In this document: positions 2,258 through 12,481 of the stretch, piece by piece
Layout: every line of letters starts with the position of its first letter
Position numbering within the stretch: the first letter of the stretch is position 1
Source: Kiloniellales bacterium
GTDB lineage: Bacteria > Pseudomonadota > Alphaproteobacteria > Kiloniellales > JAKSBE01
NCBI GenBank assembly: GCA_030066685.1
Contig: JASJBF010000002.1
Span: 1 to 64,000 of the forward strand
Direction of reading: 5' to 3'
DNA: 64,000 nucleotides
Program-made: the position numbers and the translations under genes
The notes under the pieces: generated by a model
What the model saw: only the letters and a program-made list of their open reading frames with translations
Databases searched by the model: none
What the model was told of the DNA's origin: nothing

Positions 2258-3220
2258 ATGGCCAATCTGTTATGGCTCCAGGGCGGCGCCTGTTCCGGCA
2301 ACACCATGTCATTCCTCAACGCCGAGGAACCCAGCGCCTGCGACCTGGTGACCGACTTCGGCATCAACGTCCTGTGGCAGCCCTCGCTTGGGCTCGAGCT
2401 TGGCGACAACGTCAAGGCGATCCTGGAGAAGTGCATCTCGGGGGAGATCCAGCTCGACATCTTCGTCTTCGAGGGCACGGTGGTGAACGCGCCGGACGGC
2501 ACCGGCGAATGGAACCGCTTCTGCGGCCGGCCGATGAAGGAGTGGGTCAAGGAGCTTTCCACGGCGGCGCAGTTCGTCGTGGCGATCGGCGACTGCGCGA
2601 CCTGGGGCGGCATCCCGGCGACCGCGCCGAACCCCTCGGAAAGCCAGGGCCTGCAGTTCCTCAAGCGCAACCACGGTGGCGCGCTGGGTGCCGGCTTCAC
2701 CTCCAAGGCCGGGCTGCCGGTGATCAACATCCCGGGCTGCCCGGCGCATCCGGACTGGGTCACCCAGATTCTCGTGGCGGTGGCCACGGGCCGCGCCGGC
2801 GACTTGGAGCTCGACGATTTCCAGCGGCCCAAGACCTTCTTCTCCAGCTTCACCCAGACCGGCTGCACCCGGAACATGCACTTCGCCTACAAGGTCTCGG
2901 CGACCGCCTTCGGCCAGCGCAAGGGCTGCCTGTTCTACGACCTGGGCTGCCGCGGTCCCATGACCCATAGCCCCTGCAACCGCATCCTCTGGAACCGGGT
3001 GTCGTCCAAGACGCGGGCCGGCATGCCCTGCCTCGGCTGCACCGAACCGGAGTTTCCCTTCTTCGACCTCGCGCCCGGCACGGTCTTCAAGACCCAGACC
3101 ATGATGGGCGTGCCCAAGGACCTGCCCGAGGGCGTCGACAAGAAGGGCTACGTGAAGCTCACCGCCGCCGCCAAGGGCGCCGCCCCGGCCTGGGCGGAAG
3201 AAGACATCTTCGTCGTCTGA
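2258..3220 (+). CDS. hupS: [NiFe] hydrogenase small subunit, group 2a type
   Basis: Electron-transfer subunit of 320 residues with a strong ribosome site (AGGGAGGT) before ATG. It begins MANLLWLQGGACSGN with no Tat signal, so the enzyme should stay in the cytoplasm. The sequence follows cyanobacterial HupS and mycobacterial Huc-type subunits closely in length and motifs (GDCATWGG, IPGCPAHPDW, TGCTRN, GMPCLGCTEPEFPF). The first cluster motif has Cys12 but Asn15 where standard small subunits have a second Cys. This group shares the trait, and Huc is known to carry [3Fe-4S] rather than [4Fe-4S] clusters. It heads the operon and partners HupL. Confidence 0.96.
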   Translation: MANLLWLQGGACSGNTMSFLNAEEPSACDLVTDFGINVLWQPSLGLELGDNVKAILEKCISGEIQLDIFVFEGTVVNAPDGTGEWNRFCGRPMKEWVKELSTAAQFVVAIGDCATWGGIPATAPNPSESQGLQFLKRNHGGALGAGFTSKAGLPVINIPGCPAHPDWVTQILVAVATGRAGDLELDDFQRPKTFFSSFTQTGCTRNMHFAYKVSATAFGQRKGCLFYDLGCRGPMTHSPCNRILWNRVSSKTRAGMPCLGCTEPEFPFFDLAPGTVFKTQTMMGVPKDLPEGVDKKGYVKLTAAAKGAAPAWAEEDIFVV

Positions 3221-3248: not shown

Positions 3249-4844
3249 ATGTCAGCCGTTCAAACGCTCGACATCTCGCCGGTTGGCCGCGTCGAGGGCG
3301 ACCTCGACGTTCGCGTCGACATCCAGGACGGCGTGGTCACCAATGCCTGGACCCACGCCGAGCTCTTCCGGGGCTTCGAGGTCATCCTGCGCGACAAGGA
3401 CCCGCAGGCCGGCCTCGTCGTCACGCCGCGCGCGTGCGGCATCTGCGGCGCCTCGCACCTGACCTGTGCGGCCTGGGCGCTGGACACTGCCTGGGGCACG
3501 ACGGTGCCGCGCAACGCGATCCTGGCGCGCAACCTGGGGCAGATCGTCGAATCGATCCAGTCGCTGCCGCGCCACCACTACGGCCTCTTCATGATCGACT
3601 TCACCAACAAGAACTATGCCGCCAGCCAGTTCTTCGAGGACGCCGTCAAGCGCTATGCGCCCTTCACCGGGACCTCCTACGAGGCCGGAGTCACCATCTC
3701 GGGCCGGCCGGTGGAGATCTATGCCTTGCTCGGTGGGCAGTGGCCGCATTCCTCTTACATGGTGCCCGGCGGGGTGATGTGTGCCCCGACGCTGACCGAC
3801 GTGACCCGCGCCTGGTCAATCCTGGAGCACTTCCGGCGCAACTGGGTCGAGCCGCTCTGGCTCGGCTGCGCCATGGAGCGCTACGAGGAGATCCAGTCCT
3901 ACGACGACTTCATGAGCTGGCTCGACGAGCGCCCCGAGCACGCCAACTCGGATCTCGGTCTCTACTGGCGCATGGGCATGGACATCGGCCTTCAGAACTT
4001 CGGCCGCGGCCATGGCAAGTTCATCTCCTGGGGCTACCTGCCACACGAGGACAAGTATCAGAACCCGACCATCGAGGGCCGTCAGGCCGCGGTGATCATG
4101 AAGTCGGGCGTCTATGACGGCGCCAGCGACAGCCACAAGCTGATGGACCAGGCCTTCGCCCGCGAGGACATGACCCACGCCTGGTACGACGAGACCGGCG
4201 AAAGCCATCCCTTCGACCGGGTGACCAACCCGGTCGGCAAGAACCCGGTCGACGTCGACGGCAAGTACTCCTGGTGCACCGCCGTGCGCCACGCCGAGAA
4301 CGGCCGCCTCGAGGCCGGCCCGCTGGCCCGGCAGCTGGTCGCCGGCGGCGCCCACGGCGAGGACTGGCAGCACAGCGATCCGCTGGTCCTCGACATGTAC
4401 CGCAAGATGGGCGGCCCCTCGATCCTGCTCCGTCACTTCGCCCGCATGCACGAGCTCTGCAAGCTCTACCGCCAGGCCGAGCGCATCCTGCGCGAGTTCA
4501 AGCTCGCCGACGAGTGGTACATCAAGCCGACCGAGAAGGACGGCCAGGGCTGGGGCGCCACCGAGGCGATCCGCGGCGCGCTCTGCCACTGGATCGACGT
4601 GCGGGACGGCAAGATCAAGAACTACCAAATCATCGCGCCGACCACCTGGAACGTCGGCCCCCGCGCGTCGGACGGCGAACGCGGGCCGATCGAGGAAGCC
4701 CTGATCGGCACCCCGATCAAGGATTCCAGCGATCCGGTCGAGGTCGGTCACGTCTGCCGCTCTTACGACTCCTGCCTGGTCTGCACGGTCCACGCTCACG
4801 ATGCCAAGTCGGGCAAGGAACTGGCCCGTTTCCGCACGGCGTGA
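3249..4844 (+). CDS. hupL: [NiFe] hydrogenase large subunit, group 2a type
   Basis: Catalytic subunit of 531 residues, 28 bp after hupS with its own GGGAGG site. The active-site motifs are visible: L1 RACGICGASH near residue 62 and L2 DSCLVCTVH near the C-terminus. These supply the four cysteines for the Ni-Fe(CN)2CO centre. L2 has Ser where most enzymes have Pro (DPCxxC). The 16 residues after CTVH (AHDAKSGKELARFRTA) are the expected propeptide removed by the protease at 5654-6145. Role: H2 oxidation feeding the respiratory chain. Relatives in group 2a include enzymes with affinity high enough for atmospheric H2; that property cannot be read from sequence. Confidence 0.97.
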   Translation: MSAVQTLDISPVGRVEGDLDVRVDIQDGVVTNAWTHAELFRGFEVILRDKDPQAGLVVTPRACGICGASHLTCAAWALDTAWGTTVPRNAILARNLGQIVESIQSLPRHHYGLFMIDFTNKNYAASQFFEDAVKRYAPFTGTSYEAGVTISGRPVEIYALLGGQWPHSSYMVPGGVMCAPTLTDVTRAWSILEHFRRNWVEPLWLGCAMERYEEIQSYDDFMSWLDERPEHANSDLGLYWRMGMDIGLQNFGRGHGKFISWGYLPHEDKYQNPTIEGRQAAVIMKSGVYDGASDSHKLMDQAFAREDMTHAWYDETGESHPFDRVTNPVGKNPVDVDGKYSWCTAVRHAENGRLEAGPLARQLVAGGAHGEDWQHSDPLVLDMYRKMGGPSILLRHFARMHELCKLYRQAERILREFKLADEWYIKPTEKDGQGWGATEAIRGALCHWIDVRDGKIKNYQIIAPTTWNVGPRASDGERGPIEEALIGTPIKDSSDPVEVGHVCRSYDSCLVCTVHAHDAKSGKELARFRTA

Positions 4845-4927: not shown

Positions 4928-5314
4928 ATGGCCGAGGTTGCCGACAAGGATCCCGTGGTCGCCGAGCGGGAGGACTACGTCACGCGCTACGGCGTGGCGC
5001 CCTCGGAGGCCGATCACGCGACCTTGCTACGGATGATCGAAGACCTCATGACCGAAGGGCTGAAGACCGAGGTCGAGCCCTTTCCCGAGACCGACAGGGA
5101 ATTCGCCGGAATCCTGGACGAGCTCCGCCACCTCGACGCGGATCAGCTGCGTGCCAAACTTGTGGTCAGCGGCTGGCTGCTCCAGCCCTACGGCGAGGAC
5201 GAGATGCGCTGCCAGGAATGCATGTACTTCCTGGTCCACAAGCGCTGGTGCGACCTGCCCGAGCTGAGCCTGCCGGCCGAGCCGGATTGGTGGTGCCGGC
5301 TCTGGCGGATCTGA
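4928..5314 (+). CDS. Four-cysteine hydrogenase-cluster protein, copy 1
   Basis: Protein of 128 residues; ATG at 4928 follows a GGGGAGAG site, which favours it over an upstream GTG. The N-terminal part is acidic and helical. The C-terminal 35 residues carry Cys95, Cys98, Cys108 and Cys123 within QECMYFLVH, CDLPEL and CRLWRI. The gene 10 bp downstream encodes a paralogue with the same spacing (C-x2-C-x9-C-x14-C). The four Cys could hold Zn or an Fe-S or rubredoxin-like iron. I cannot name the family. Its place directly after hupL suggests an electron carrier or a subunit or assembly factor special to this hydrogenase type. Confidence 0.8.
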   Translation: MAEVADKDPVVAEREDYVTRYGVAPSEADHATLLRMIEDLMTEGLKTEVEPFPETDREFAGILDELRHLDADQLRAKLVVSGWLLQPYGEDEMRCQECMYFLVHKRWCDLPELSLPAEPDWWCRLWRI

Positions 5315-5324
5315 GGACGCCGAG

Positions 5325-5657
5325 ATGACCGAGGCCGGCACCACTGCCGAAGACGAGGCCCTGCGGGACGAGATCGCGGCCAAGCTGAAATCCGGGCTCG
5401 AGACGGAAGTCTGGCCGCGGGCCGAGACCTCAGAGATGGTCAATGAGGTCGTGGCGCGCCTGCGCAGGGAGGCCGGCGAGGACCTGACCGCCAAGCTTGT
5501 GATCGCCGGCGTCACCGGCCACCCAATCGAGGCGGACGACATCGAGCAGCCCTGTGAGACCTGCATGTACTACCTGGTGCACCGCGGTTTCTGCGAGCTG
5601 CCGGAGCTGATGATCCCGGTGGCGCCGGAGTGGTCCTGCCGGCTCTGGCGGATATGA
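5325..5657 (+). CDS. Four-cysteine hydrogenase-cluster protein, copy 2
   Basis: Protein of 110 residues, paralogue of the preceding gene. Cys77, Cys80, Cys90 and Cys105 have identical spacing, and the C-terminus has ETCMYYLVH, CELPEL and again CRLWRI. The N-terminal halves differ more but both contain a helical acidic stretch and an AKLVxxG segment. Tandem retention of two divergent copies suggests a heterodimer or two partners. The stop overlaps the start of the protease gene (ATGA). Confidence 0.8.
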   Translation: MTEAGTTAEDEALRDEIAAKLKSGLETEVWPRAETSEMVNEVVARLRREAGEDLTAKLVIAGVTGHPIEADDIEQPCETCMYYLVHRGFCELPELMIPVAPEWSCRLWRI

Positions 5658-6145
5658 CCCTGGCGGTCATCGGCTGCGGCAATCCCAACCGCCGGGACGA
5701 CGGGGTCGGTCCGGAGGTCATCGCCCGGCTGCGGCGCCAGGCCTTGCCGGAGGGCGTCGCGCTCTACGACGCCGGAACCGACGGCATGGGGGTGATGTAC
5801 CGGGCCCGCGGCGCCTCGCATCTGATCATCGTCGACGCCCGGTCTCCCGAGAGCGCGCCCGGGGCGATCTACGACGTTCCGGGCGAGATCCTCGAGGCCC
5901 CGCCGCCCCGGAGCCTGAACCTCCACGACTTCCGCTGGGACCACGCGCTCTTCGCCGGGCGCAAGATCTACGGCGAGGCTTTCCCGGCGCAGGTGAAGGT
6001 CTTCCTGGTCGAGGCCGGCTCCCTGGACCTCGGACTGGGGTTGACCGAGGCCGTCGAGGCCGCTGCCGAGGCGGTCGCCGCCCGGATCGCGGCCTTGTCG
6101 AAGGCCTACGCCGCGGGAGACTGGACCGGAGGTCCTTCGGCATGA
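5654..6145 (+). CDS. hupD: Hydrogenase maturation endopeptidase
   Basis: Protein of 163 residues of the HyaD/HupD/HoxW family. It starts at the ATG overlapping the previous stop (ATGA). The family signature GCGNPNRRDDGVGPEV is at residues 7-22 and a second acidic site is in LIIVDARS; both families of acidic residues normally probe nickel in the large subunit. It should clip the HupL propeptide after CTVH once nickel is in place. Confidence 0.93.
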   Translation: MTLAVIGCGNPNRRDDGVGPEVIARLRRQALPEGVALYDAGTDGMGVMYRARGASHLIIVDARSPESAPGAIYDVPGEILEAPPPRSLNLHDFRWDHALFAGRKIYGEAFPAQVKVFLVEAGSLDLGLGLTEAVEAAAEAVAARIAALSKAYAAGDWTGGPSA

Positions 6146-6459
6146 CCGCCCGGGTCGACGTGCGCCAAGGCTCGGTCTACCTCTCGGCCGAGGTCTACGA
6201 GACCTACTTCGCCGGTGTCCGCGCGGTGATCGTTCTGATCCGGGACGGCAGCCTGCAGGTTCTCCCCGTGCGCCAGATGGCGGCCGGCGGCTGCCTGCTG
6301 AAGATCCGCAATGCGGCCGGGGACCGGGTCGCCGCGGCGCCCGATGTCTTCCAGGCCAAGGGTCTCGCCGAATGGTGTGGGGTAGGCCTGAACGCCCGCT
6401 GGTCCTCGGAGCAGAGCGCCCTGGTGATCGATCTGCCAGCCGAAACAACTGCAAACTAA
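6142..6459 (+). CDS. Conserved small protein of the hydrogenase operon
   Basis: Protein of 105 residues whose ATG overlaps the protease stop (ATGA), so it is translationally coupled. It is mostly beta-rich with a central hydrophobic strand (AGVRAVIVLIRDG) and has no signal peptide or metal motif beyond two scattered Cys. I do not recognise the family. Coupling to the protease suggests a role in maturation or assembly. Confidence 0.7.
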   Translation: MTARVDVRQGSVYLSAEVYETYFAGVRAVIVLIRDGSLQVLPVRQMAAGGCLLKIRNAAGDRVAAAPDVFQAKGLAEWCGVGLNARWSSEQSALVIDLPAETTAN

Positions 6460-7599: not shown

Positions 7600-7794
7600 A
7601 TGGGAATCCTGCTTTTCGTCATCAGTCTCATCGTCGGCATCGCCGCGGCCATGGCGGCGGGCGCCGGCTCCGGCATGCGCATCGGCGGCGAGGCGCTCGG
7701 CAACGAGCTCGCGGCCTACATGGGCTCGCTCTATGGCCTGCTCGCCGGTGGGACCGGGGTTGCGCTGGGTCTCGTCGTACTCCTGCTGATCTGA
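7600..7794 (+). CDS. Small two-helix membrane protein A
   Basis: Protein of 64 residues with ATG at 7600 after AGAGGG. Two hydrophobic helices (residues 2-22 and 43-64) flank a Gly-rich loop. It pairs with the next small membrane protein 10 bp downstream. Possible roles are membrane anchor or quinone-side partner for a hydrogenase that lacks its own membrane subunit. The family is not recognised. Confidence 0.7.
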   Translation: MGILLFVISLIVGIAAAMAAGAGSGMRIGGEALGNELAAYMGSLYGLLAGGTGVALGLVVLLLI

Positions 7795-7804
7795 GGAGGC
7801 TCGC

Positions 7805-8026
7805 ATGCTCAGCACAGCCGTCGACTCCGCGAAGCTCCTCTTCGCCGGAAAGCTCTTCAAGGACAACGTCAAGGCCCTGCGGCAGCTCGCCATCGGCGCC
7901 GGTGCCGGCGCGGTGACGGTGGTCGTTGTCGGACTGTTTGCCCCGATTTGGGTCGCCGCCATCGTCGGGGGCGCGGTCAGCGGCGGTCTGCAGCCGATCC
8001 TGTTCAAAGACCTCAAGTACGCCTGA
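7805..8026 (+). CDS. Small membrane protein B
   Basis: Protein of 73 residues with a GGAGG site before ATG. An amphipathic basic N-terminal stretch (AKLLFAGKLFKDNVKAL) is followed by one or two hydrophobic helices (residues 28-62). It is tightly linked to protein A and to the NifU-Rieske gene 4 bp downstream. It is probably a membrane tether for the hydrogen-oxidising complex; this is inference from context. Confidence 0.7.
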   Translation: MLSTAVDSAKLLFAGKLFKDNVKALRQLAIGAGAGAVTVVVVGLFAPIWVAAIVGGAVSGGLQPILFKDLKYA

Positions 8027-8912: not shown

Positions 8913-8916
8913 GGTG

Positions 8917-10101
8917 ATGCGGGTTGCGCTTTCGCCGGCTTTCGAAGCGGTCAAGGCGCCCGGGACCGCGACCCCCGGCGCAGCCTTGCTCGACCCGTCC
9001 GGTCCCGGCGCGATTCTCGGCTGGACGGCGGACGCGCTCGCCGCGCCGATTGCGCCCGCGCAGAGCACGCTCTTCGGCCCGCGCGGCCTCTGCCTGCATC
9101 CCGACGGCTCCTTCTGGGTGGCGGACAGCGGACACCACCGCCTGCTCGGCTGGCGCCGGGTGCCAGAGGCCGACAACGCGCCTGCCGAGATCGTGATCGG
9201 CCAGCCCGACTTCACCCGTGAGGGGCGCAACGCCAAGGGCTCGGCGGGGCCGGCGACCCTCAACGTCCCGACGGGGGTCTGCGCCTGGGGCAGGGGCCTG
9301 GCCCTGGCCGACGCCTGGAACCACCGCGTGCTCCTGTGGCGCGAGACGCCCGCCGAGTCCGGTCAGCCGGCCGACATCGTCCTGGGCCAGGCCGAGCCGA
9401 CGGCCGTCCGGGCGAACCGCGGCGCAGATCGGCCGACCGCGGCCACCTTGCACTGGCCCTACGGTCTCGCCGAGATCGATGGCCGGCTGGTCGTGGCCGA
9501 CACCGGCAACCGCCGCGTCCTGGTCTGGGAGAACCCGGAGCGCAACGCGCAGCCGGCGGACCGCGTCCTGGGCCAGCTTGACTTCGAGACCCGCGACGAG
9601 AACGCCGGCAGCGAGGTCGGGCCGGTCGGCATGCGCTGGCCCCACGGCATCGCATCGTGGCAGGGTCGACTTGCGATCTCGGATGCCGGCAACAACCGGA
9701 TCATGCTGTGGGACGGCCTCCCGTCGCGTCCGGGCGCAGCCTGCGATCAAGTCCTGGGCCAGGCCAACTTCGCCGCCTGCGATCACAACATGGCCGCCTA
9801 CTACCCCTGCGCCGCGGCCCTCAACATGCCCTATGCGGTCGCGGCCGCGGGCGACCTCCTGATCGCCGCCGACACCGCTAACTCGCGGCTTCTCGGCTGG
9901 TCCGAGCTCGCCACGGCGGCGCCGGCCGAGCGGCTGACCGGCCAGCCGGACTTCGCCTCCAAGGGCGACAACGGCTGGGGCCTGCCCGCGCGCGATACCC
10001 TCTGCTGGCCCTACGGACTTTCGGTCAAGGGACGCCGCGTCGCCGTCGCCGACAGCGGCAACAACCGCGTCCTGCTCTGGGATCTGGCGCATGAAGGGTG
10101 A
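8917..10101 (+). CDS. NHL-repeat beta-propeller protein
   Basis: About 394 residues. Six or so repeats of the type VADTGNRRVLVW / ISDAGNNRIMLW / VADSGNNRVLLW define NHL blades, each followed by a VLGQ(A/L)xF strand. There is no signal peptide. ATG 8917 and GTG 8914 both overlap the GAGGTGA ribosome site; ATG is preferred. The end overlaps hypF by 11 bp. NHL proteins occur in other group 2a hydrogenase operons; a scaffold or docking role is likely, with unknown ligand. Confidence 0.88.
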   Translation: MRVALSPAFEAVKAPGTATPGAALLDPSGPGAILGWTADALAAPIAPAQSTLFGPRGLCLHPDGSFWVADSGHHRLLGWRRVPEADNAPAEIVIGQPDFTREGRNAKGSAGPATLNVPTGVCAWGRGLALADAWNHRVLLWRETPAESGQPADIVLGQAEPTAVRANRGADRPTAATLHWPYGLAEIDGRLVVADTGNRRVLVWENPERNAQPADRVLGQLDFETRDENAGSEVGPVGMRWPHGIASWQGRLAISDAGNNRIMLWDGLPSRPGAACDQVLGQANFAACDHNMAAYYPCAAALNMPYAVAAAGDLLIAADTANSRLLGWSELATAAPAERLTGQPDFASKGDNGWGLPARDTLCWPYGLSVKGRRVAVADSGNNRVLLWDLAHEG

Positions 10102-12481
10102 AGCCATCACGGTGCGCGGCCAGGTCCAGGGCGTCGGCTTCCGCCCGACTGTCTGGCGCATCGCGACCGAGCTGGGCCTCGCCGGCGACGTGCGCAACAC
10201 CGGCGACGGGGTCGAGATCCGGCTCTGGGGGGCGGGGCTGGAGCGCTTCGCCGAGCGCCTCAAGTCGGAGGTTCCCGTCCTGGCGCGGATCGACCGGATC
10301 GAACGGGCGCCCCTCGACGATCCGCCGCCGCAGGGCTTCGAGATCGCCGCCTCGGTCGGCGGCCCCATGCGCGCCTCGGTCGCCCCGGACGTGACGGTTT
10401 GTGCCGACTGCCTGGCCGAGGTCCGCGATCCCTTCGCTCGGCGTTATCGCTATCCCTTCGCGAACTGCACCAACTGCGGGCCGCGGTTTTCCATCGTCGA
10501 GGCCGCCCCCTATGACCGCGATCAGACCACGATGCGGGGCTTTGCGCTCTGCCCGGGGTGTCGCGGCGAGTACGAGGACCCGGCCGACCGCCGCTTCCAC
10601 GCCCAACCGATCGCCTGCCACGCCTGCGGGCCGCGCGCCTGGATCGAGCATCTCGGCGGCGGCGTGGTGAACCACGAGGCCTTCTCCATGCTCGACGACG
10701 TCGATGCCGCCGGCGGCATGCTGATGATGGGCCACATCGTCGCGATCAAGGGCATCGGCGGCTTCCACCTGGCCTGCGACGCGACCAGGGCCGAGGTGGT
10801 GGCCCGCCTGCGCGCCCGCAAGCGCCGGCGCGGCAAGGCCTTCGCGCTGATGGCCCGGGATGTCGCGGTGATCCGGCGCTACTGTGCGGTCTCCGAGGAA
10901 GAGGAAGCCTTGCTGCGCAGCCCGGCGGCGCCAATCGTCCTTCTGGAGGCCTCGGGCGCGCCCTTGCCCGGGGCCGTGGCGCCCGGCCTCGATCGCCTCG
11001 GCTTCATGCTGCCCTACACGCCGCTGCATCACCTGATGCTGCGCCGCATGACCCGGCCGGTGGTCATGACCAGCGGCAACATTTCCGGCCGGCCGCAATG
11101 CGTCACCAACGCGCAGGCCCGGGATCAGCTCGGCGAGGTGGCCGACTTCGCCCTGATGCACGACCGCGAGATCGCCAACCGGATCGACGACTCGGTCCTG
11201 CGCTTCGACCTCGGCCGGCCGCGGCTCCTGCGCCGGGCCCGGGGCTATGCGCCGACGCCCATTCCGCTGCCGGAGGGTTTCGACGATGACGCGCAGGTCC
11301 TGGCCCTCGGCGGCGAGCTGAAGAACACCTTTTGCCTGATCAAGGAGGGCCAAGCGGTCCTGAGCCAGCACATGGGCGACCTGGAGGACGCGACGACGGC
11401 CGAAGACGTCGCCCACAACCTCGCGCTCTACCGCCAGGTCTACGAGCATGCGCCGGATCTGATCGCGGTCGATCGACATCCCGACTACCTCTCGACCAAG
11501 CGCGGGCAGGAGATGGCGGCGCAGGCCGGTCTGCCGCTGGTCGAGGTGCAGCATCACCATGCCCACGCCGCGGCCTGCCTGGCCGAGAACGGCCGGCCGC
11601 TGGACGCGGCACCGGTGCTCGGCGTCGTTCTCGACGGCCTCGGCTTCGGTGCCGACGGGACGGTCTGGGGCGGCGAGTTCCTGGCCTGCGACTACCGCGG
11701 TTTTCGGCGCCTGGCCTGCCTCAAGCCGGTGGCGCTTCCGGGCGGGGCCGCCGCTGTCCGCGAGCCCTGGCGCAACGCCTACGCCCACCTCATGGCCGAG
11801 ATGGGCTGGGCCGAGTTTGCGATGAACTTCGGCCACCTCGAAGTTTTTGCCCGGCTCGAAGCGGCGCCGCGCAAGGCCCTCGACGCGATGATCGCCAAGG
11901 GCTTGAACTCGCCACTGTCCTCCTCCTGCGGCCGGCTCTTCGACGCCGCGGCCGCGCTCTGCGGTCTCGCCTGGGAGACCCAGGCCTACGAAGGCGAAGC
12001 CGCGATGCGCCTGGAGGCGGCGCTGGATCCCGACGCCCTCGGCGAGTCGGAGGAGATGGCCTATCCCTTCGCGATCCCGCTGCTCGGCGGCAAAGGTTTG
12101 CCTTACATCGAGCCTCTGGCGGTCTGGCGCGCTTTGCTCGGCGACCTGCACCTCGGGACGCCGCTCGGCGTGATCTCGGCCCGTTTTCACCGCGGCCTGG
12201 CCAAGGCGATCGTGGCCATGGCGCTGCGCGTGGGGGGCGAGGATCGCAGCTTTTCGACCGTTGCCCTCAGCGGCGGCTGCTTCCAGAACGCGACGCTTTT
12301 CGCCCTGGTCCACGAGGGCCTCGTGGCCCAGGGCTTCGAGGTGCTGAGTCACGAGAAGGTGCCGGCGAACGACGGCGGCCTGGCGCTCGGCCAGGCGGTG
12401 GTCGCGCTGGCAACCGAACAAAGAACTTCAGGAGAGAGCCATGTGCCTGGGGATCCCGGGGCGGGTCGTCGAGATCAGTGA
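10091..12481 (+). CDS. hypF: Carbamoyltransferase HypF
   Basis: 796 residues, full length. An acylphosphatase-like domain (GQVQGVGFRP near residue 10) is followed by four CxxC zinc motifs (CADC, CTNC, CPGC, CHAC), a YrdC-like domain and the C-terminal Kae1-like domain with HHHAHAA. HypF makes the thiocarbamate on HypE from carbamoyl phosphate, the first step of cyanide ligand synthesis. It overlaps the NHL gene at the start and hypC by 41 bp at the end, so it is tightly coupled. Confidence 0.97.
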   Translation: MKGEAITVRGQVQGVGFRPTVWRIATELGLAGDVRNTGDGVEIRLWGAGLERFAERLKSEVPVLARIDRIERAPLDDPPPQGFEIAASVGGPMRASVAPDVTVCADCLAEVRDPFARRYRYPFANCTNCGPRFSIVEAAPYDRDQTTMRGFALCPGCRGEYEDPADRRFHAQPIACHACGPRAWIEHLGGGVVNHEAFSMLDDVDAAGGMLMMGHIVAIKGIGGFHLACDATRAEVVARLRARKRRRGKAFALMARDVAVIRRYCAVSEEEEALLRSPAAPIVLLEASGAPLPGAVAPGLDRLGFMLPYTPLHHLMLRRMTRPVVMTSGNISGRPQCVTNAQARDQLGEVADFALMHDREIANRIDDSVLRFDLGRPRLLRRARGYAPTPIPLPEGFDDDAQVLALGGELKNTFCLIKEGQAVLSQHMGDLEDATTAEDVAHNLALYRQVYEHAPDLIAVDRHPDYLSTKRGQEMAAQAGLPLVEVQHHHAHAAACLAENGRPLDAAPVLGVVLDGLGFGADGTVWGGEFLACDYRGFRRLACLKPVALPGGAAAVREPWRNAYAHLMAEMGWAEFAMNFGHLEVFARLEAAPRKALDAMIAKGLNSPLSSSCGRLFDAAAALCGLAWETQAYEGEAAMRLEAALDPDALGESEEMAYPFAIPLLGGKGLPYIEPLAVWRALLGDLHLGTPLGVISARFHRGLAKAIVAMALRVGGEDRSFSTVALSGGCFQNATLFALVHEGLVAQGFEVLSHEKVPANDGGLALGQAVVALATEQRTSGESHVPGDPGAGRRDQ

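Follow-up and report, generated by a model that had tools for sequence, protein, structure and literature searches.

Group 2a hydrogenases and their accessory proteins

Many aerobes use group 2a hydrogenases to consume H2 from the atmosphere. In the mycobacterial enzyme Huc, menaquinone is reduced by the small subunit HucS, to which it is delivered by the HucM stalk (PMC10017518). HucM is known from this mycobacterial enzyme and is not part of every group 2a operon. Another protein of the huc operon, the NifU-Rieske fusion HucE, is an Fe-S protein and has been proposed as an electron acceptor (PMC6883350). The electron route of the mycobacterial enzyme is known and involves HucM and menaquinone, but no description of it was found for the many Proteobacteria, which use ubiquinone.

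In Acidithiobacillus ferrooxidans, the product of DN052_04130, a small Fe-S protein encoded near the group 2a hupLS genes, was described as a putative HiPIP and as a possible link to ubiquinone, and was detected as protein; the function of the adjoining gene DN052_04125 was given as unknown (Kucera et al., 2020; PMC7735108). In the accessible part of the paper, a single protein is named, on the basis of annotation; a pair, a family, its distribution, a fold test and a replacement of HucM are not described there. Small cytoplasmic HiPIP-fold [4Fe-4S] proteins are also found in benzylsuccinate synthase (BSS), which has two per enzyme, the beta and gamma subunits. These are accessory to a glycyl radical enzyme, have a structural or regulatory role and are not established as electron carriers (PMC12590467).

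The huc operon in the window

The window, i.e., the whole analyzed stretch of 64,000 nucleotides from a Kiloniellales bacterium (contig JASJBF010000002.1), contains a huc operon with the following gene order:

2258..3220, + strand: HupS, group 2a (Huc-type) small subunit without Tat signal
3249..4844, + strand: HupL, group 2a large subunit
4928..5314, + strand: FCp1, four-cysteine protein of 128 aa with a helical N-terminal part and a C-terminal HiPIP-fold Cys domain (predicted)
5325..5657, + strand: FCp2, tandem paralogue of FCp1 with 110 aa and the same predicted fold
5654..6145, + strand: HupD, hydrogenase maturation protease, start overlapping the FCp2 stop
6142..6459, + strand: conserved hypothetical protein of 105 aa
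6586..7569, + strand: TPR-like protein
7600..7794, + strand: hydrophobic (membrane) protein of 64 aa
7805..8026, + strand: hydrophobic (membrane) protein of 73 aa
8031..8912, + strand: NifU-Rieske fusion, HucE type
8914..10101, + strand: NHL-repeat protein
10091..12481, + strand: HypF maturation protein, named from its gene position and from similarity among the loci

Over its full length, HupS matches HucS of Mycobacterium smegmatis, whose structure is solved (E = 5e-156), and the enzyme was therefore assigned to the group 2a (Huc-type) [NiFe]-hydrogenases. HupL is ~54% to HucL of M. intracellulare. Both subunits are of the HucS/HucL type and have neither a Tat signal nor a membrane helix. 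The genes for FCp1 and FCp2 are separated by 10 bases, and the FCp2 stop shares the sequence ATGA with the hupD start (4-bp overlap).

Upstream of hupS (positions 314-1774), a sigma-54-type response regulator is encoded, which is conserved in nearly all loci with FCp1/FCp2 relatives (FC proteins) and probably regulates the huc operon.

Sequence and conservation of FCp1 and FCp2

The four cysteines (Cys95, 98, 108 and 123 in FCp1; Cys77, 80, 90 and 105 in FCp2) have the spacing C-x2-C-x9-C-x14-C. The motifs CMY[FY]LVH and C[DE]LPEL and the terminal CRLWRI are likewise common to both proteins. A preliminary description of the locus had reported these tandem four-cysteine paralogues directly after hupL, and alignment and gene order confirmed this. 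Its statement that the N-termini diverge was overstated. With FCp1 as query, FCp2 was found with an E-value of 1.4e-20, as the sole relative in the own genome. The two proteins are 42% identical across residues 29-128 (~100 residues), and their likeness is far beyond chance. The N-terminal part is also homologous (I37, G44, L45, T47, P51, L66, L78 and G82 are invariant in the alignment) and the first ~25 residues alone are dissimilar. The reading of the tandem pair as a recent DNA repeat was rejected.

The exact cysteine spacing was kept in 153 out of 156 homologues, with an unread residue in two of the three exceptions. Across 66 diverse members, the four cysteines, Gly82, Tyr100, Pro111, Trp121, Leu125 and Trp126 did not vary. 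In a tree, the sequences of the FC1 and FC2 types formed two clean groups (support 0.999), and the pair thus goes back to one old duplication that is kept in nearly all operons. An FCp2 from a metagenome-assembled genome (locus L052, 10397-10705) has an Arg at the second Cys, due to either a sequencing error or decay.

No family was found for FCp1 and FCp2 in sequence searches of Pfam, NCBIfam and the PDB, and plasmid records annotate FC proteins as hypothetical proteins. The searched literature did not yield a description of the FC pair as a family or of a replacement of HucM. DN052_04130 of A. ferrooxidans is probably a member of the same family, as suggested by the gene order given in PMC7735108.

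Relation to the HiPIP fold

AlphaFold models of FCp1 and FCp2 reached pLDDT values of 95.3 and 94.6, respectively. Foldseek alone gave no significant match for either model. When the Foldseek candidates were aligned with VIA-align, every row was a HiPIP, for FCp1 (7 rows, Z 3.7-4.0, ~60 residues) as well as for FCp2 (11 rows, Z 4.4-5.6). These Z values are middling, and the weight given to the predicted fold rests on the uniform list and on the agreement of the two models.

In an independent hhalign comparison with a profile of 14 Tat-type HiPIPs, each of the four cysteines fell in line with its HiPIP counterpart (P = 6.5e-4 and 6.8e-4). In controls with permuted columns and fixed cysteines, the score was reached in 0 of 150 cases for either paralogue (control maxima 24.2 and 23.3; real scores 26.6 and 26.3). 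The FC profile was also searched against 369 genomes, where it matched two true, Tat-bearing HiPIPs with E-values of 0.004 and 0.009, which are not significant alone; both are also among the 14 profile members.

The FC proteins share with the HiPIPs (PF01355) the fold match of both models, the register C-x2-C ... C ... C-x2-W and aromatic residues at Cys2+2 and Cys4+3. In contrast to the HiPIPs, the FC proteins are cytoplasmic, as they start at an additional helical N-terminal part in place of a Tat signal, whereas the RR motif is common to the 14 HiPIPs compared. Moreover, the third Cys follows the second by just 9 residues, and the genes form a tandem pair tied to a hydrogenase. FCp1 and FCp2 did not reach the PF01355 cut-off, and PF01355 was absent among 25 of the 33 families listed for 66 FC members at E-values up to 10. 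Since the Tat signal and a HiPIP Pfam match are lacking, the FC proteins are best described as HiPIP-fold relatives and not as HiPIP members; the fold is well supported. The predicted fold supports an Fe-S cluster, presumably of the [4Fe-4S] type.

Four cysteines alone cannot separate Fe-S from Zn binding, and the sole PDB sequence matches of FCp1 were weak ones to zinc-finger domains of UHRF1 (E = 1.5 or worse). However, the structural matches are HiPIPs only, the HiPIP profile is in register, and the Cys spacing is unlike that of common zinc ribbons. A function of FCp1 and FCp2 in zinc binding, be it regulatory or structural, is therefore highly improbable.

Distribution of the FC genes

In 84,980 scanned species genomes, 159 FC relatives were detected, and the best 80 of these were examined. 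All 80 are located in a huc operon. In 79 cases, hupL immediately precedes them; in the remaining one (L085), the contig begins at FCp1. FC pairs in Gammaproteobacteria also adjoin hupL. FC and huc-type hupL (counted at >= 80% identity, i.e., at least 80%) were found in the same 4 of 398 Pseudomonadota genomes. They also coincided in the same 2 of 279 Alphaproteobacteria genomes and in the same 12 of 72,556 plasmid records. In everything searched, FC in Proteobacteria is exclusively tied to the group 2a hydrogenase. Thus, the idea that the family might be common without hydrogenases did not hold. Because of the linkage to the huc operon, it is strongly supported that FCp1 and FCp2 are dedicated hydrogenase subunits.

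The matches G288, which covers the N-terminal part only, and G841, which contains in-frame stops, are noise. The match G653 is a decayed locus in which both hupL and FCp1 are broken.

Five group 2a operons, found in Bacteroidota, Thermus, Mycobacterium and Sulfobacillus, lack the FC genes; in these, HupD directly follows HupL, whose identity is about 55%. This bears on a possible function as assembly factors, in which FCp1 and FCp2 would mature the HupS clusters, or shield them in air, and stay outside the working enzyme, comparable to the factor of the rubredoxin type that serves the group 1d enzyme. The FC genes are flanked by hupL and by the gene for the maturation protease, which FCp2 overlaps by 4 bp. 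This position would fit such a function, and a rubredoxin-related protein helps a group 1d hydrogenase to mature under aerobic conditions (cited by PMC6883350). Nevertheless, the five operons above manage without FCp1 and FCp2, and among proteins with the HiPIP fold, electron carriers and accessory subunits are known, but no maturases. A role in assembly is accordingly considered improbable.

HucM, the small membrane proteins and the quinone site

In M. intracellulare, the hucM position is taken by a gene annotated as DUF1641 (PF07849). This domain was found in none of 17 FC genomes, including that of the window, but in 3 of 4 group 2a records without FC, where it is encoded beside hucS or within the adjoining hypAB group (the latter in Thermus and Sulfobacillus); it is also absent from the Runella record. 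Lineages with FC are generally known to use ubiquinone, and those with DUF1641 menaquinone.

HucM and the FC proteins are both accessory proteins encoded beside the hupSL/hucSL genes of a group 2a hydrogenase, but HucM is a coiled-coil stalk without a Cys cluster, has no sequence relation to FC and occurs where FC is absent. A relationship of FC to HucM was rejected after hhalign comparison with three HucM-type proteins (0.8% probability). HucE likewise has another fold than the FC proteins and is encoded in addition to them in most FC operons.

Between the TPR and NifU-Rieske genes, two small hydrophobic proteins are encoded in 71 out of 71 FC loci in which this slot was visible. In the operons without FC, the slot has no gene in Mycobacterium and Sulfobacillus and a non-hydrophobic one in Thermus. 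In the records seen, no function is given for the proteins at 7600-7794 and 7805-8026, which are candidate membrane anchors.

The HucS menaquinone-site residues K212, Y229 and Y301 are conserved in 76/76, 76/76 and 75/76 FC-bearing HupS sequences, respectively (K212, Y227 and Y298 in the window), and likewise in HupS without FC. Direct reduction of quinone at HupS is consequently possible, which counts against an electron relay through FCp1 and FCp2.

Proposed role of FCp1 and FCp2

We propose that FCp1 and FCp2 are cytoplasmic HiPIP-fold subunits of a Huc-type hydrogenase that relay electrons from HupS to quinone in the place of HucM, and assign a probability of roughly 50% to this reading. 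Each protein would bind one [4Fe-4S] cluster via its four conserved cysteines, within an aromatic shell (Y100, W121 and W126 in FCp1), and the helical N-terminal part would dock it onto HupSL. Together with the two small membrane proteins, they may form a module that stands in for HucM and links HupSL with the membrane and with the ubiquinone pool. In this module, FCp1 and FCp2 most likely would receive electrons from the distal HupS cluster and hand them on towards quinone. The cluster type, the relay towards ubiquinone, the binding to HupSL, the direction of electron flow and the acceptor are all inferred here. More tentatively, and with some doubt, this set of two HiPIP-fold and two membrane proteins could be a coupling device particular to proteobacterial group 2a enzymes that replaces HucM and directs electrons from trace H2 to ubiquinone, not to menaquinone.

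The preliminary description had suggested that the two proteins could act as electron carriers or belong to the hydrogenase complex as subunits. The HiPIP-type fold and the strict dependence on group 2a agree with this, while electron transfer as such is presumed. The frame of a missing cytochrome b does not suit group 2a, in which the mycobacterial HucS reduces menaquinone directly with HucM. The operon also encodes HucE, and with the menaquinone-site residues kept in HupS, quinone reduction there may need no relay.

Several points count against the relay. The classic high-potential couple could lie above that of ubiquinone, the huc operon also encodes a Rieske protein, and the HiPIP-fold subunits of BSS, taken as an analogy, are accessory and not established carriers (PMC12590467). 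The operons of two Rhodocyclaceae that have FCp1 only also speak against the proposed role.

Some of these observations would suit structural or docking subunits, in which the cluster only holds the fold, as in the BSS beta/gamma subunits, and FC plus the membrane proteins form a scaffold replacing HucM. No electron would pass via FC, and the scaffold would let quinone reach the conserved HupS site. The quinone-site residues are conserved in all group 2a enzymes compared, the FC genomes are without HucM, and the HiPIP-fold accessory subunits of glycyl radical enzymes (PMC12590467) would be a parallel. On the other hand, FC has no sequence relation to HucM, and two cluster proteins with strict Cys and aromatic conservation would seem to be more than a scaffold needs. 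A purely structural role is therefore regarded as rather unlikely.

If the relay by FCp1 and FCp2 holds true, a cytoplasmic HiPIP-fold electron carrier would be unusual. The four small conserved genes are a defined set, open to deletion and to purification of their products in bacteria that are in culture, for example Sphingopyxis alaskensis RB2256, which makes the proposal directly testable. This strain oxidises H2 below the atmospheric level (PMC10305171), and its plasmid-borne huc operon carries the FC pair.

Incomplete, rearranged and decayed huc loci

The Rhodocyclaceae huc operons with FCp1 and without FCp2 are at L085 (7-318) and L091 (7407-7748). In L028 and L033, the sequence ends ahead of FCp2. 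Rearranged huc loci were found in L077, L080, L081 and L096 (Burkholderiales-type and Rhodanobacter). In these, the TPR, NifU-Rieske and NHL genes have moved away, with NifU-Rieske elsewhere in the genome, and the FC pair still follows hupL. L185 (7486-8040) has a decayed huc remnant with hupL and FCp1 in broken pieces. Transposase-like genes are close by, and the remnant adjoins a likely nickel transporter gene.
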